Assembly: GCA_913057245.1 (NCBI GenBank)
Contig: CAJXNH010000017.1
Coordinates: 1 to 64,000, forward strand
Length of the DNA: 64,000 nt
Source: an uncultured Phaeodactylibacter sp.
Lineage (GTDB): Bacteria > Bacteroidota > Bacteroidia > Chitinophagales > Saprospiraceae
Direction of reading: 5' to 3'
This document shows, in pieces, positions 43,729 to 48,567 of the stretch. A model generated the notes under the pieces. The model did no database searches. It saw only the letters and a list, made by a program, of their open reading frames with translations, and was not told the DNA's origin. Position numbers and translations under genes: made by a program. Positions within the stretch are counted from its first letter, which is position 1, and every line of letters begins with the position of its first letter.

Positions 43729-46700
43729 ATGGCTGAAGAAAATAAGCAAAAGGATAAATTACGGCAGTTTAGCTTGTCTACACTGGCCGTAGACAACGGG
43801 ACGAGCGTTTTCATTCTTACGCTCATGATCCTGATTTTCGGGATTCAGTCCTATCAGGACATGCCCAAAGAGCAGTTCCCGGAAGTTGACTGGCCCACGG
43901 TGTACATCAACACCCCTTACTTCGGTAACTCTGCCGCAGATATTGAGAACCTCGTAACCCGTCCAATCGAGAAGGAACTTCAGTCGATAACGGGCATTAA
44001 GGACATCAAGTCAACGTCTATTCAGGACTATTCCGTGATTACAGCGGAGTTTTCTGCAGATATGGACCTCGATGATGCGGTCCGCAAGGTGAAGGATGCA
44101 GTAGATAAAGCCAAAAGTGAACTGCCCAACGACCTGGATCAGGATCCTACCGTCCTGGACATCAACCTGTCGGAAATCCCAATCGTCACGGTCAATATCT
44201 CTGGTGACTATACGAATGATGAACTTCGGAGTTACGCTGAATACTTGCAGGATGAGATCGAAACCCTAGATGAAATCTCGGAGGTAGAGCTGAAGGGTGC
44301 CCGGGAGCGGGAAGTCAAGGTGGATATCGATCTGCCGAAGATGGAGTCGATGCAAGTCACTTTCCGGGATATTGAAAATGCTATTTCTTCCGAGAACATA
44401 ACCATGTCCGGCGGTGAACTGCTTAATAATGATTTCCGCCGGGCTATCCGGGTAAAGGGAGAATTTGAGGATGTTTCTGAACTGGAGGAGATGATTGTCA
44501 AGAGTGAGAATCAGCGCCCGATCTATCTGCGGGAAATTGCCAAGGTTACCTTTGGCTACAAAGACCCTACAAGTATCGCACGCTCAGATGGCTTCCCGGT
44601 GATTTCTCTGGATGTCATCAAACGGCAGGGGGAGAACCTGCTGGACGCTTCTGACAAGATTAAGGTAATCGTAGACGAGGCGCGTGAGGAACTGCCGGAG
44701 GAACTGAAAATCAGCCTGTTCAATGATCAGTCTGTGAATACCCGCGATCAGGTAAGTAATCTGGAGAACAGTATCATCTCCGGGGTGATTCTGGTAGTGG
44801 TGGTGTTGCTGTTCTTTTTGGGCTTGCGCAATGCCTTGTTCGTAGGGTTGGCCATCCCACTGTCTATGCTTATGGGGATCCTGTTCCTTTCGCTGACGGG
44901 GGTAACAATGAATATTGTCGTGCTTTTCGCACTCATACTGGCGCTGGGGCTTTTGGTGGATAATGCTATCGTGGTGGTGGAGAATATCTACCGGTATATG
45001 CAGGGTGGCTACAATGGCTGGGACGCTGCGAAGTATGGAGCCGGAGAGGTGGCCCTGCCGATCATCGCTTCTACAGCAACTACGCTGGCAGCTTTTCTGC
45101 CACTGGCGTTTTGGCCGGGTATCATGGGGGAATTCCTGAAGTACCTGCCCATCACCCTGATCATTGTACTGACATCCTCCCTCATTGTGGCATTGGTGAT
45201 CAACACCGTATTTACCAGCCGCTTTATGAAAGTAGATGAGCGGGCAGAAGACCCTGCAGTGCGCAAGCGGCGGCAGACCAATATTCTTATTGGTGCGGCG
45301 GTGATGCTGGTGCTGGCAGTGGTTTTCCACTTCACAGGCTTTGAAGCAGGGCGTAACCTTTTGGGCATTGCCCTGATTGTAACCCTGATCAACTGGTTCC
45401 TGCTCCGGCCGGCGGCATTTAAGTTTCAGAATAACTTTTTGCCTGTGTTGGAGAATGCGTACGACAAGTTTATCCGCGGCGCCCTGCGCGTGCCGGGGGT
45501 GATCTTTGGCGGTACCTTTGTGCTGTTGTTTGCAGCCCTTGCACTGTTGGCGGTGAATATGCCGAAGGTGGAATTCTTCCCTTCTGCTGATCCGTTGTAT
45601 GTGAATGTCTTTGTAGATATGCCTCTGGGTACAGATATCAATGCGACCTACGAATCCGTGCAGGAAGTCGAGGCGCGGGTGAGCAAAGCCATTGAGCCCT
45701 ATCAGGGTATCGTTGAGGCTGTGCTGACGCAGATCGGTGAAAACACAGCTGACCCTAATGGGCCACCTGAACCGGGAGCGTCTCCTCAAAAGGCTCGCCT
45801 GACCGTCTCCTTCGTGCCTTCCAAAGACCGGGGCGAGCTGTCCACCTTTGATGCTATGGAGGACATCCGTGAAGCGGTACGGGGCATACCGGGTGTGAAA
45901 ATCACCGTTGATAAAAACGCGGATGGTCCGAACGCCGGTAAGCCGATTAACCTGGAAATTCAGGGAGAGGATATCGATCAGCTGGCGATCCTGTCAGAGG
46001 ATGTGATCAATTACATCAACTCTAAGAATATACCGGGCATTGAAGAACTGCAGGCCGATATCAAAATCGGTAAGCCGGAATTAATTGTGAATGTCGATCG
46101 GGAAGCCGCCCGCCGGTATGGGGTGTCTACTTTTGATATTGCGAATGCCGTGCGTACCGCCGTCTTTGGCAAAGAAGTCTCTAAGTTTAAGGAAGGGGAG
46201 GATGAGTATCCTATCTTTATTCGTTTGGATGAAAAGTATCGCTACGATATTGATGACCTGCTCAATCAGCGGATCACCTTCCGCAGCCCGGCCACAGGGC
46301 AGATTTCTCAGGTGCCAATTTCTGCGGTTGCGGACATCAAGTTCACCTCCACTTACAGCTCGATTAAGCGGAAAAACCTGGACCGGGTGATTACTATTTA
46401 CTCAAATGTACTGGAGGGGTATTATCCCAACGAGATTATTCCTGAGATAGACCGGTGGATGGCCGCCTACGACTTGCCAGAAGGGTTTACCTACGAATTT
46501 ACGGGAGAGCAGCAGCAGCAGGCCGAAGATATGGACTTTCTATACACGGCTTTCGGTATTGCGCTATTCTCCATATTCCTGATTATTGTAGCGCAGTTTA
46601 ACTCTGTTGCTTCGCCCTTTATCATCATCCTGTCGGTGCTTTTCAGTACGATTGGGGTATTTTTGGGTTATGCCTTTGGTGGGCGTGATATTTCCGTGAT

Positions 46701-47169
46701 TTTCACCGGTGTGGGTATTATCTCTCTGGCAGGTGTTGTGGTGAATAATGCCATCGTCCTGATTGATTTTACAAATATCCTGGTAGGCCGTAAGCAAAAA
46801 GAGCTCGGCTACTCGAAAAATCAGTTCCTGGAATCAGCGGATATGAAGGAAGCGATCATAGAGGGCGGCGCGACCCGTCTGCGGCCCGTATTGCTAACGG
46901 CTATTACTACCGTACTCGGTCTTATACCCCTGGCGGTTGGGTTTAACTTCAACTTCTTCACGCTGATCACTGACCTGGATCCGCAGATATTCATCGGCGG
47001 CGACAATACCGCGATTTGGGGGCCTATGGCCTGGACTGTAATCTATGGTTTGGTGTTCGCCACCTTCCTGACTTTGATTGTGGTACCGGTGATGTACTAC
47101 CTGGCATACCGCCTGAAAGTAGGGGTCCTGAAGGTTTTTGGAAAGGAAGCTGCACCTTCGGCAGTATAG
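43729..47169 (+). CDS. RND efflux permease (HAE family)
   Basis: 1146 residues, twelve membrane helices and two large periplasmic loops, inner membrane. The N-terminal domain has 'EQFPEVDWPTVYINTPYFGNSAADIENLVTRPIEKELQ'. The helix-4 motif is 'ALGLLVDNAIVVVENI' (D411-N412 in place of the Asp-Asp pair of AcrB) and helix 10 has 'GVVVNNAIVLIDF' instead of the Lys of AcrB, so the proton relay differs from AcrB as in many environmental RND pumps. A long insert follows helix 6. It is the last gene of the TetR-TolC-MFP-RND operon and is followed by a strong terminator. Substrate cannot be inferred. Confidence 0.94.
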   Translation: MAEENKQKDKLRQFSLSTLAVDNGTSVFILTLMILIFGIQSYQDMPKEQFPEVDWPTVYINTPYFGNSAADIENLVTRPIEKELQSITGIKDIKSTSIQDYSVITAEFSADMDLDDAVRKVKDAVDKAKSELPNDLDQDPTVLDINLSEIPIVTVNISGDYTNDELRSYAEYLQDEIETLDEISEVELKGAREREVKVDIDLPKMESMQVTFRDIENAISSENITMSGGELLNNDFRRAIRVKGEFEDVSELEEMIVKSENQRPIYLREIAKVTFGYKDPTSIARSDGFPVISLDVIKRQGENLLDASDKIKVIVDEAREELPEELKISLFNDQSVNTRDQVSNLENSIISGVILVVVVLLFFLGLRNALFVGLAIPLSMLMGILFLSLTGVTMNIVVLFALILALGLLVDNAIVVVENIYRYMQGGYNGWDAAKYGAGEVALPIIASTATTLAAFLPLAFWPGIMGEFLKYLPITLIIVLTSSLIVALVINTVFTSRFMKVDERAEDPAVRKRRQTNILIGAAVMLVLAVVFHFTGFEAGRNLLGIALIVTLINWFLLRPAAFKFQNNFLPVLENAYDKFIRGALRVPGVIFGGTFVLLFAALALLAVNMPKVEFFPSADPLYVNVFVDMPLGTDINATYESVQEVEARVSKAIEPYQGIVEAVLTQIGENTADPNGPPEPGASPQKARLTVSFVPSKDRGELSTFDAMEDIREAVRGIPGVKITVDKNADGPNAGKPINLEIQGEDIDQLAILSEDVINYINSKNIPGIEELQADIKIGKPELIVNVDREAARRYGVSTFDIANAVRTAVFGKEVSKFKEGEDEYPIFIRLDEKYRYDIDDLLNQRITFRSPATGQISQVPISAVADIKFTSTYSSIKRKNLDRVITIYSNVLEGYYPNEIIPEIDRWMAAYDLPEGFTYEFTGEQQQQAEDMDFLYTAFGIALFSIFLIIVAQFNSVASPFIIILSVLFSTIGVFLGYAFGGRDISVIFTGVGIISLAGVVVNNAIVLIDFTNILVGRKQKELGYSKNQFLESADMKEAIIEGGATRLRPVLLTAITTVLGLIPLAVGFNFNFFTLITDLDPQIFIGGDNTAIWGPMAWTVIYGLVFATFLTLIVVPVMYYLAYRLKVGVLKVFGKEAAPSAV

Positions 47170-47198: not shown

Positions 47199-47240
47199 AG
47201 CCCGCTACTGCACTTAATATAGTGTGGTAGCGGGCTTTTT
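47199..47240 (+). terminator. Terminator of the efflux operon
   Basis: AGCCCGCTAC / GTAGCGGGCT (47199-47208, 47227-47236), ten perfect pairs, followed by TTTTT. Confidence 0.88.
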
Positions 47241-47722
47241 GCTAAAAGTATATACGTTATGGTCCCTGCTGGGCGTTTTTAAGATAGGTTATTCGATAAT
47301 GCGAAGGATATTTTGTTTTTAGGCAGAATGAGAAATAGGCTCGCCAAACCATATAAACCCAAACGGAGCAATAAAATTGGTGCTTTTTTCATGAAACAGG
47401 CTTTAATCCTAATGCTGAGGGCTTGGGTTTTTGTTACCAATTACGGATAAAAAGCAACATCTGAAGTGGCTTATGCTCTTTGGAAATTAAGAAATTATGC
47501 GAGGAATCAGGCGCTGAATATTTCATCTAATCAAATGAATGTCATCTTTTCTATGTCACATTTTTCATAAAATTGTTTCCAAGGGGTCTTTGAAAACTTT
47601 CATATTTGTATTGTAATTGTTAGGGAAAGAACCTAGCAAACTTGAAAAGAGAGATTTACGCTTAAGTGCGTTAAAGATATTTGGGTCGGGTGAGTGTTTG
47701 TTCATAGTTTTTGTAATCGTAT

Positions 47723-47747
47723 CCCCCGAGTGTTCGGGGGCTTTTTT
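47723..47747 (+). terminator. Intrinsic terminator of unit 1
   Basis: Seven-base perfect GC-rich stem with GTGT loop, followed by C and six T. Confidence 0.85.
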
Positions 47748-47808
47748 ACCTCACTCACCTGACTCATAAGAACTTAGTGTTGTTCATAGTGTTTGTTTAT
47801 CGTTAGAC

Positions 47809-47839
47809 CCCTGTCATCTTGTGTGACAGGGTTTTTTTT
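47809..47839 (+). terminator. Intrinsic terminator of unit 2
   Basis: Eight-base perfect stem, seven-base loop, eight T. It lies 74 bases before the pdxH ATG. Confidence 0.88.
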
Positions 47840-47913
47840 GTCCCGGCTGTAAAAAGCGATACTGCAAATTCACAACACTTGCCCCAATCTTTTGTTTTTC
47901 CTGTTAAAAATTC

Positions 47914-48567
47914 ATGCCAGCCAACAGCAAAATAGAACAATTGCGTAAAGACTATTCCGCGCATACACTGGAGATGGACGACGTCAGCCCCAATCCGGTG
48001 GAACAGTTTCAGGTATGGTTTGACGAAGCGCTAAATGCTGAGGTGCCGGAACCGAATGCCATGACACTCTCCACAGCGACGACTAATGGAATTCCTTCTG
48101 CCCGTATCGTTCTGCTCAAAGGGATCACAGATGGCAGTTTCTTGTTTTACACGAATTACAATAGCCGTAAAGGCCAGGAGTTACTGGCTAATCCACGTGC
48201 GGCCCTTACTTTCCTGTGGCATGAGCTGCAGCGTCAGGTGCGTATAGAGGGGAGGGTAGAGGTGTTGTCAGCAGAAGCATCCACCCGCTATTTTCAGTCC
48301 CGTCCGAAGGGAAGCCAAATTGGTGCCTGGGCTTCTCCTCAAAGTACGCAGATCGAATCGCGGGAAGCCCTTGAAGAAAAGGTGAAGCAATTGGAAGAAG
48401 ACTACCGCTCAGCGGAAGCCCTGCCCAAACCGGAACACTGGGGCGGCTATCAGGTCGTTCCGCACCGGGTTGAGTTTTGGCAGGGCCGCAGCAGCCGTCT
48501 GCACGACCGCATCGAGTACACGTTGTCAGAGGATGGAAGCTGGTCGGTAGCCCGTCTGGCGCCGTAA
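47914..48567 (+). CDS. pdxH: Pyridoxamine 5'-phosphate oxidase
   Basis: 217 residues, cytoplasmic FMN enzyme producing pyridoxal phosphate (vitamin B6). It contains 'AMTLSTATTNGIPSARIVLLKGI', the FMN-contact 'FLFYTNYNSRKGQELLANPRAALTFLWHELQRQVRIEGRVE', and 'SRPKGSQIGAWASPQS'. The C-terminal dimerisation block contains 'WGGYQVVPHRVEFWQGR' and 'SRLHDRIEYTL'. Length and motif order match the family exactly. Single gene with its own terminator at 48583-48617. Confidence 0.97.
   Translation: MPANSKIEQLRKDYSAHTLEMDDVSPNPVEQFQVWFDEALNAEVPEPNAMTLSTATTNGIPSARIVLLKGITDGSFLFYTNYNSRKGQELLANPRAALTFLWHELQRQVRIEGRVEVLSAEASTRYFQSRPKGSQIGAWASPQSTQIESREALEEKVKQLEEDYRSAEALPKPEHWGGYQVVPHRVEFWQGRSSRLHDRIEYTLSEDGSWSVARLAP

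Follow-up and report, generated by a model that had tools for sequence, protein, structure and literature searches.

Tandem predicted small RNAs of Saprospiraceae with candidate start-codon pairing sites in SusC-type transporter genes

The window, a 64,000-nucleotide stretch of DNA from an uncultured Phaeodactylibacter sp., carries two tandem plus-strand units at 47685-47839, here named A and B, each approximately 61-66 nt long and comprising a G/U-rich 5' part followed by its own terminator hairpin (Table 1). They are preceded by a large transporter gene, which we take to be RND-type, and followed by pdxH. An earlier note on this DNA had described a repeated core, TGTTCATAGT, at 47699 and 47781 with a period of 82 bases; both copies are present, and the 17-base repeat is 94% identical between the units. 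The two-base spacer that it placed before ATCGT fits the second unit, while the first has a single base. Unit A consists of GGGTGAGTGTTTGTTCATAGTTTTTGTAATCGTAT, the hairpin CCCCCGA-GTGT-TCGGGGG, a C and six T; unit B consists of AGTGTTGTTCATAGTGTTTGTTTATCGTTAGA and the hairpin CCCTGTCAT-CTTGT-GTGACAGGG-TTTTTTTT (stem 47809-47831), with eight T. The separate hairpin and T-tract proposed for each unit were both recovered: the interval 47300-48200 holds three terminator-like sites against 0.7 ± 0.9 in shuffles, two being the unit hairpins and the third an unrelated site on the minus strand. As the note also proposed, neither terminator serves a protein gene, because the RND gene has its own hairpin and T-run and pdxH begins only at 47914. 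The repeat is far beyond chance, as each unit turns up across the family as a type of its own.

In folding predictions the 5' part of unit B is mostly unpaired, and unit A can form a weak GUGAG/UUCAU hairpin that would cover the anti-start-codon bases. The inverted repeat reported around the first unit, given as 12 bases, is real and comprises 11 pairs, one of them G-U. Within Phaeodactylibacter this 11-bp outer stem could enclose the entire unit A with its terminator. It is not kept beyond the genus: a matched run of at least six was found in 13/74 A units (partner-swapped mean 9.4, maximum 15), and it was dropped as a family feature. Shorter outer stems occur in scattered relatives (GGGTG/CACCC, and GAGTG/CACTC in L107), without family-wide support.

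Table 1. Features of the two-unit locus, its flanking genes and a related unit elsewhere in the source genome
Feature	Position	Strand	Basis or remark
Large transporter gene upstream of unit A	43729..47169	+	ORF; own hairpin and T-run at ~47200-47240
TAAAGA element upstream of unit A, possible promoter part	47672..47677	+	Enrichment in A units
Inverted repeat around unit A, left arm	47686..47696	+	Pairs with 47752-47762
Unit A, predicted small RNA of ~61 nt (5' GGGUGAGUGUUUGUUCAUAGUUUUUGUAAUCGUAU, then terminator)	47688..47749	+	R2 covariance-model match at 47690-47749 (45.2 bits, E 5.9e-7); aligned relatives
Unit A core UUCAUAGU, antisense to AC-UAUGAA start-codon contexts	47701..47708	+	Sequence; invariant TTGTTCATAG in aligned units
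Unit A terminator: 7-bp GC stem, GTGT loop, T6 tract	47723..47747	+	Stem 47723-47740, CCCCCGA-GTGT-TCGGGGG-C-TTTTTT
Inverted repeat around unit A, right arm	47752..47762	+	Pairs with 47686-47696
TAAGA element upstream of unit B, same element as TAAAGA	47767..47771	+	Enrichment in B units
Unit B, predicted small RNA of ~66 nt (5' AGUGUUGUUCAUAGUGUUUGUUUAUCGUUAGA, then terminator)	47773..47840	+	R2 covariance-model match at 47773-47840 (74.2 bits, E 1.3e-13)
Unit B core UUCAUAGU	47783..47790	+	Sequence; aligned units
Unit B terminator: 9-pair stem CCCTGTCAT/GTGACAGGG, T8 tract	47809..47839	+	Sequence; covariation in relatives
pdxH (pyridoxamine 5'-phosphate oxidase, name from the earlier note), 217 aa, downstream gene	47914..48567	+	ORF
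Class C unit	G000:C16:8905-8967	-	GTTTGTTTATAGTTT with GGTACTCC/GGAGTACC terminator; outside the window

BLASTN with positions 47640-47860 found matches in 51/197 relatives, and searching 84,980 species genomes with the core pattern gave at least 118 stretches. Among the matches listed, the named groups are Saprospiraceae, Saprospirales, Lewinella(ceae), Phaeodactylibacter, Chitinophagales and Sphingobacteriales (one assembly), the rest being Bacteroidota MAGs or simply 'bacterium'. In all, 148 units with a terminator were collected, or 89 after removal of near copies (47 A, 42 B). Alignment A1 holds 88 of the 89 (L063 was left out, its hairpin having been mis-called); a second alignment, A2, and the covariance model R2 draw on 32 units hand-chosen for alignable stems. 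TTGTTCATAG is invariant in all 88 aligned units, partly by selection, as the scan required the core. At an E-value of 0.001, R2 matches 96/199 genomes of the family, often with two or more copies, and 68/157 of those of good quality. The earlier note had named a covariance-model search in relatives as a check, and a lack of core or hairpin conservation in close relatives as counting against its reading; both searches clearly recover such conservation.

Across a class-wide sample of 395 genomes, every R2 match above 45 bits falls within Saprospiraceae, and matches outside the family reach at most 43.4 bits. The weak matches from other families and orders (34-43 bits; L207, L210, L212, L213 and L214) are G/U-rich stretches (such as GAGTGTTTGTTTGTAGTTTGTTTG or AAGTTTTTTCATGGTGTTTG) that follow a probable stop codon or gene end and precede a terminator. 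They could be relatives derived from 3'-UTRs or chance matches, and we do not count them as members. On contigs C7 and C11 of G011 (L198 and L199), GTGTTTGTTCATAGTGTCTC occurs twice more, with no evident terminator nearby.

The units fall into two types, A being marked by GGGUGAGUGUUUGUUCAUAGUUUUUG (GGGTGAGTGTTTGTTCATAG with TTTTTG) and B by UUAGUGUUUGUUCAUAGUGUUUG (TTAGTGTT(T)GTTCATAG with TGTTTG). Across 99 distinct loci, some of them cut by contig ends and by the search, we counted 37 AB, 28 A only, 28 B only, 3 AA and one each of ABBB, ABAB and BBBB. Wherever both types are present (39 loci), A lies ahead of B, with a start-to-start distance of 63-492 nt (median 153). Two distinct types in a fixed order indicate that A and B are old paralogues rather than fresh duplicates. 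Local expansion was seen before pdxH, in arrays of at least four units: ABBB at L014 (G019), and BBBB with a fifth pattern match at L097.

Variation among relatives bears on whether the units act as RNA. Of the hairpin cells, 91.6% are paired in relatives, and 45 hold double changes compared with 15.2 ± 3.0 in shuffles; covariation is 0.482 for the hairpin, 0.229 when shuffled and at most 0.129 in slid versions. Variability is lowest in the core; conservation extends to the sequence between core and hairpin, and the upstream sequence is near random. Among 74 B units, 40 have GTGTTTGTTC and 32 have GTGTTGTTC, so that the core differs in length by one base, which a reading frame would not tolerate; the units are therefore non-coding, and a small peptide was ruled out. 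It is also highly improbable that the repeat is a DNA-level element, with the core as promoter or operator and the hairpins as ordinary terminators. The core does hold TAGnGTTTG/TAGTTTTTG, which is like a -7 box with one extra base, yet TTTTTG is not obligate: it is missing from the A units of L022 and L052, which keep both core and hairpin, and the core was ruled out as a promoter box because of these two units. Nor does such an element fit the conservation between core and hairpin, or a pair in which neither terminator has a gene after it. The interval very probably comprises two adjacent small-RNA genes, and since Rfam gives no match over threshold, A and B constitute a real, previously uncatalogued family of tandem predicted small RNAs.

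Upstream of the units, the element TAA?AGA occurs within 45 nt of 38/73 A units (shuffled mean 11.0, maximum 22) and 32/75 B units (shuffled mean 6.5, maximum 12). In B the usual distance from the element to AGTG is 6-10 nt; in A, distances of 16-21 nt are more frequent. The canonical Bacteroidota promoter TAnnTTTG, which PMC9723704 gives as the sigma-A consensus of Flavobacterium, was found upstream of only 1/73 A and 2/75 B units, with no enrichment. The TAAAGA/TAAGA element is a candidate part of a non-canonical promoter, and A and B most likely each have their own transcription start.

The earlier note left a choice between tandem small RNAs and a repeated regulatory leader. A protein homologous to PdxH is present in 55/59 relatives. 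Of 84 loci with sufficient sequence, 48 have a codirectional pdxH within 800 nt downstream, and none has it reversed. Such a neighborhood is what two tandem attenuators or riboswitch-like elements would show if they stopped or allowed transcription into pdxH from its 5' region. However, 36 of the 84 loci have no pdxH downstream, several have a next gene on the opposite strand, the spacing of A to B varies from 63 to 492 nt, and the 5' part, for the most part single-stranded, showed no conserved alternative fold; covariation was tested on the terminator hairpin, and the outer stem of unit A is not conserved in the family. A cis-acting leader of this kind is thus very unlikely. The units are not a pdxH leader, because of the 36 loci that lack the gene, and pdxH is not part of the RNA pair; of the two readings, the small RNAs stand, with a conserved core and compensating hairpins. 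The codirectional neighborhood at 48/84 loci is unexplained by a purely trans role. Shared ancestry of the neighborhood is its best account, and a cis role may exist at some loci.

The mechanism that we propose for the small-RNA pair is a prediction from sequence: that the RNAs are transcribed, where their 5' ends lie, what they target and in which direction they regulate. Each RNA would have a mostly unpaired, G/U-rich 5' part with the anti-start-codon stretch GUUCAUAGU, then the terminator hairpin. The predicted RNAs would base-pair in trans over the mRNA start codon, UUCAUA of the sRNA lying opposite UAUGAA of the mRNA, and translation would be blocked. SusC/RagA-type TonB-dependent outer-membrane transporters, whose messages in these species frequently begin with UAUGAA, would be the preferred targets. 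Via its extra 5' GGGUGAG, RNA A is further predicted to pair with AUGAA-AAAC-CUCAC at codons 1-6 in a group of SusC genes whose proteins begin MKKLSL.

SusC genes are numerous in these genomes: the SusC/RagA model TIGR04056 has 28 matches in the source genome (G000), and 49 and 50 in two genomes of the same genus (G001 and G005). Two truncated SusC loci were dropped, and 44 start regions were reduced by similarity to 34; the comparison starts came from a 400-kb sample of the source genome and the window. TATGAA is found at 50% of the 34 non-redundant SusC starts and at 10% of the 279 source-genome starts, the proportion being 15% for 91 signal-peptide-like genes and 7% for 188 others. The difference was replicated in three other genera, with TATGAA at 52% of 23 SusC starts versus 10% of 417 others (L339 was skipped and 24 regions reduced to 23; L351 and matches below cut-off were excluded). 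Seed pairing with SusC rather than other starts was compared with that of dinucleotide-shuffled seeds, yielding z of -2.1 and -1.6 for the own A and B seeds and -3.3 and -2.0 for the consensus A and B seeds. Against signal-peptide genes, z was -3.3 (A consensus), -2.0 (B consensus) and -2.1 (A own). In the replication set z was -2.2 for the A consensus, with 3/80 shuffles as low, and -1.3 for the B consensus (9/80), a weak replication of the B seed. These seed statistics are modest and mutually correlated.

A more specific predicted site concerns sRNA A. A SusC group with the start ATGAAAAAACTCTCACTAGT was found in G000, G001, G005 and G106, with variants in G021 and G091. This divergent group carries AUGAAAAAACUCUCAC, complementary to sRNA A at 14/16 positions; conversely, ATGAACAAACACTCAC, the complement of the A 5' end, differs from the group start at 2/16 bases. 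Protein identity within the group falls to 31%, but nucleotide identity is 84% over positions +1 to +20, compared with 57% past +20 and 41% further upstream, a contrast inflated because members were chosen for that stretch. The 18-base A 5' complement, allowing up to five mismatches, matches 8/68 SusC starts versus 2/279 and 2/417 others, and permuted patterns did equally well in 9/2000 trials. With 16 bases the counts were 14/68, 6/279 and 15/417 (permuted patterns as good in 65/2000). A 14-letter pattern was picked after viewing the sequences; the full-complement test is fairer, but has the suggesting SusC group among its 68. When the 764 starts are ranked by the energy of their duplex with bases 1-20 of A, 9 of the top 38 belong to SusC genes, which make up 68/764 overall. 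These SusC counts are not independent, given the relatedness of many of the genes and one pair of near-identical orthologues, and some of the top-ranked single starts are not SusC, e.g. a gene starting MNNNPSMQ. A near-constant start, TTAGT-ATGAAAAAACTCTCACTAGT, was seen in divergent SusC genes of several genera (L233, L274, L279, L350, L348, L343, L349, L342, L341 and L238); it pairs with sRNA A but extends past the pairing site.

Long perfect antisense sites were not clearly enriched: a search of 29 genomes with ACTATGAACAAACA, allowing one mismatch, found 80 matches, approximately 63 after removal by eye of the RNAs themselves and class C (below), against 57 for the reversed pattern, which is no clear excess. 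Two candidate targets were rejected: a ACTATGAACAACCA match common to three Phaeodactylibacter genomes lies inside a coding frame and not at a start, and a ACTATAAACAAACA match in eight genomes is in fact a small-RNA-like unit, class C, read on the other strand.

This third class is related to A and B and combines CGCTAATGTTTTTTGTTTGTTTATAGTTT with a hairpin. It is found elsewhere in G000, G001, G002, G003, G005, G006 and G013 (loci L187-L192, L194 and L296), of which five are genomes of the genus; G016 has a partial match. R2 detects it at E-values of 8.4e-4 (G000), 0.0026 (G005) and 0.042 (G006). Its pairing would differ, because its CAU is UAU. The paralogues found in the genus are A, B and this weak third class; more distant ones could be missed.

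The nearest known family is FopS of Bacteroides (RF04319, PMC11697453). As described there, B. thetaiotaomicron FopS has 14 paralogues with a 5' seed over the susC start codon and a canonical promoter, and is antagonized by the RRM protein RbpB. FopS lowers the translation of SusC-type transporters, and the counterpart in A and B is predicted pairing. On that description, A/B and FopS share an RNA of approximately 65-70 nt with a 3' intrinsic terminator (about 61 and 66 nt for A and B, from sequence), an unpaired 5' seed GUGUU..UUCAU(G/A)GU antisense to start codons, and hosts with many SusC genes and an RRM protein. They differ in that A and B are two fixed tandem types, whereas FopS has ~14 dispersed copies (12-15 per genome in Bacteroides); the middle of A/B is G/U-rich, that of FopS is AUUAGAUUUAAGGUUAA; and A/B follow a TAAAGA element, FopS a TAnnTTTG (sigma-ABfr) promoter.

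It is possible, though unlikely, that A and B are true FopS orthologues diverged beyond the Rfam threshold. The overall plan and the GUGUU-UUCAU-GU 5' end are shared, and the Rfam search placed FopS at 22.2 bits on unit B (E of 1 over all families; gathering score 56). Moreover, R2 run on ten FopS loci (30.6 kb) gave five matches at E-values of 0.0046-0.071, all of them FopS RNAs in register and nothing else, which amount to approximately one independent event because FopS copies are homologous. Against orthology, the score lies below the gathering threshold, the FopS model has no match in the source genome at an E-value of 0.001 and none reported in 10 further Saprospiraceae loci at E-values up to 10, the promoter context differs, and both families could converge on the same start-codon context. 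FopS exceeds its cut-off in 8/295 genomes of the class, and in none of the Saprospiraceae members sampled. A and B would, on present evidence, work like FopS, but we do not file them as FopS, because the Rfam threshold was not reached and the FopS-type promoter is absent.

Two other RNAs were likened to A and B by description. GibS of B. thetaiotaomicron is described as sharing the R1 seed with FopS and as having a non-canonical promoter, such as we propose for A/B; unlike A/B it is a single gene, described in no tandem array, with a second seed, R2 (a name unrelated to our model) (PMC11697453). Rfp18 of Flavobacterium psychrophilum is, like A/B, a Bacteroidota small RNA conserved in a genus; unlike them it is described as strongly structured, with predicted pairing via a third stem-loop and effects on metalloprotease mRNAs (PMC9723704).

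The FopS comparison also raises a role as protein sponges, the G/U-rich 5' part titrating an RRM-domain or other RNA-binding protein with little direct mRNA pairing. RRM_1 proteins occur in 16/19 relatives (two matches in the source genome, on contig C60), the conserved stretch is G/U-rich and mostly single-stranded, FopS RNAs are described as binding RbpB (PMC11697453), and the lack of clear enrichment of long perfect antisense sites agrees with such a role. We consider it improbable nonetheless, as the most conserved stretch is the anti-start-codon sequence, the real seeds outperform shuffled ones in pairing with SusC starts, and distinct A and B 5' ends are kept that a sponge would not need. 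Within the pairing mechanism, an RRM-domain protein may instead assist or oppose pairing, as RbpB does for FopS.

Taken together, these data favor, with reasonable though incomplete confidence, a pair of separately terminated, trans-acting small RNAs that would pair over start codons, with SusC/RagA-type transporters as preferred targets. Of its parts, action in trans through start-codon pairing appears on balance probable; that SusC genes are the main targets is a more tentative proposition.

To our knowledge, few small RNAs have been characterized in Bacteroidota outside Bacteroides, and in the open-access literature searched no paper joined Saprospiraceae or Phaeodactylibacter with a small RNA. 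A speculative reading, and a rather doubtful one, is that A/B forms, together with FopS, two branches of a single ancient sRNA circuit spanning the phylum Bacteroidota, in which short RNAs with anti-AUG 5' ends would compete with ribosomes at SusC starts, the starts of divergent SusC genes would be held constant in nucleotide sequence for sRNA reading, and the circuit in Saprospiraceae would have been reduced to a fixed A-B pair with labor divided by 5' ends. A and B form a named family usable for annotation, and they would probably switch off nutrient-uptake genes by pairing with message starts. A tandem pair present in approximately half of a large environmental family, together with a specific predicted SusC site, would offer a direct test of a phylum-wide rule, the post-transcriptional control of nutrient uptake shown so far in gut Bacteroides.
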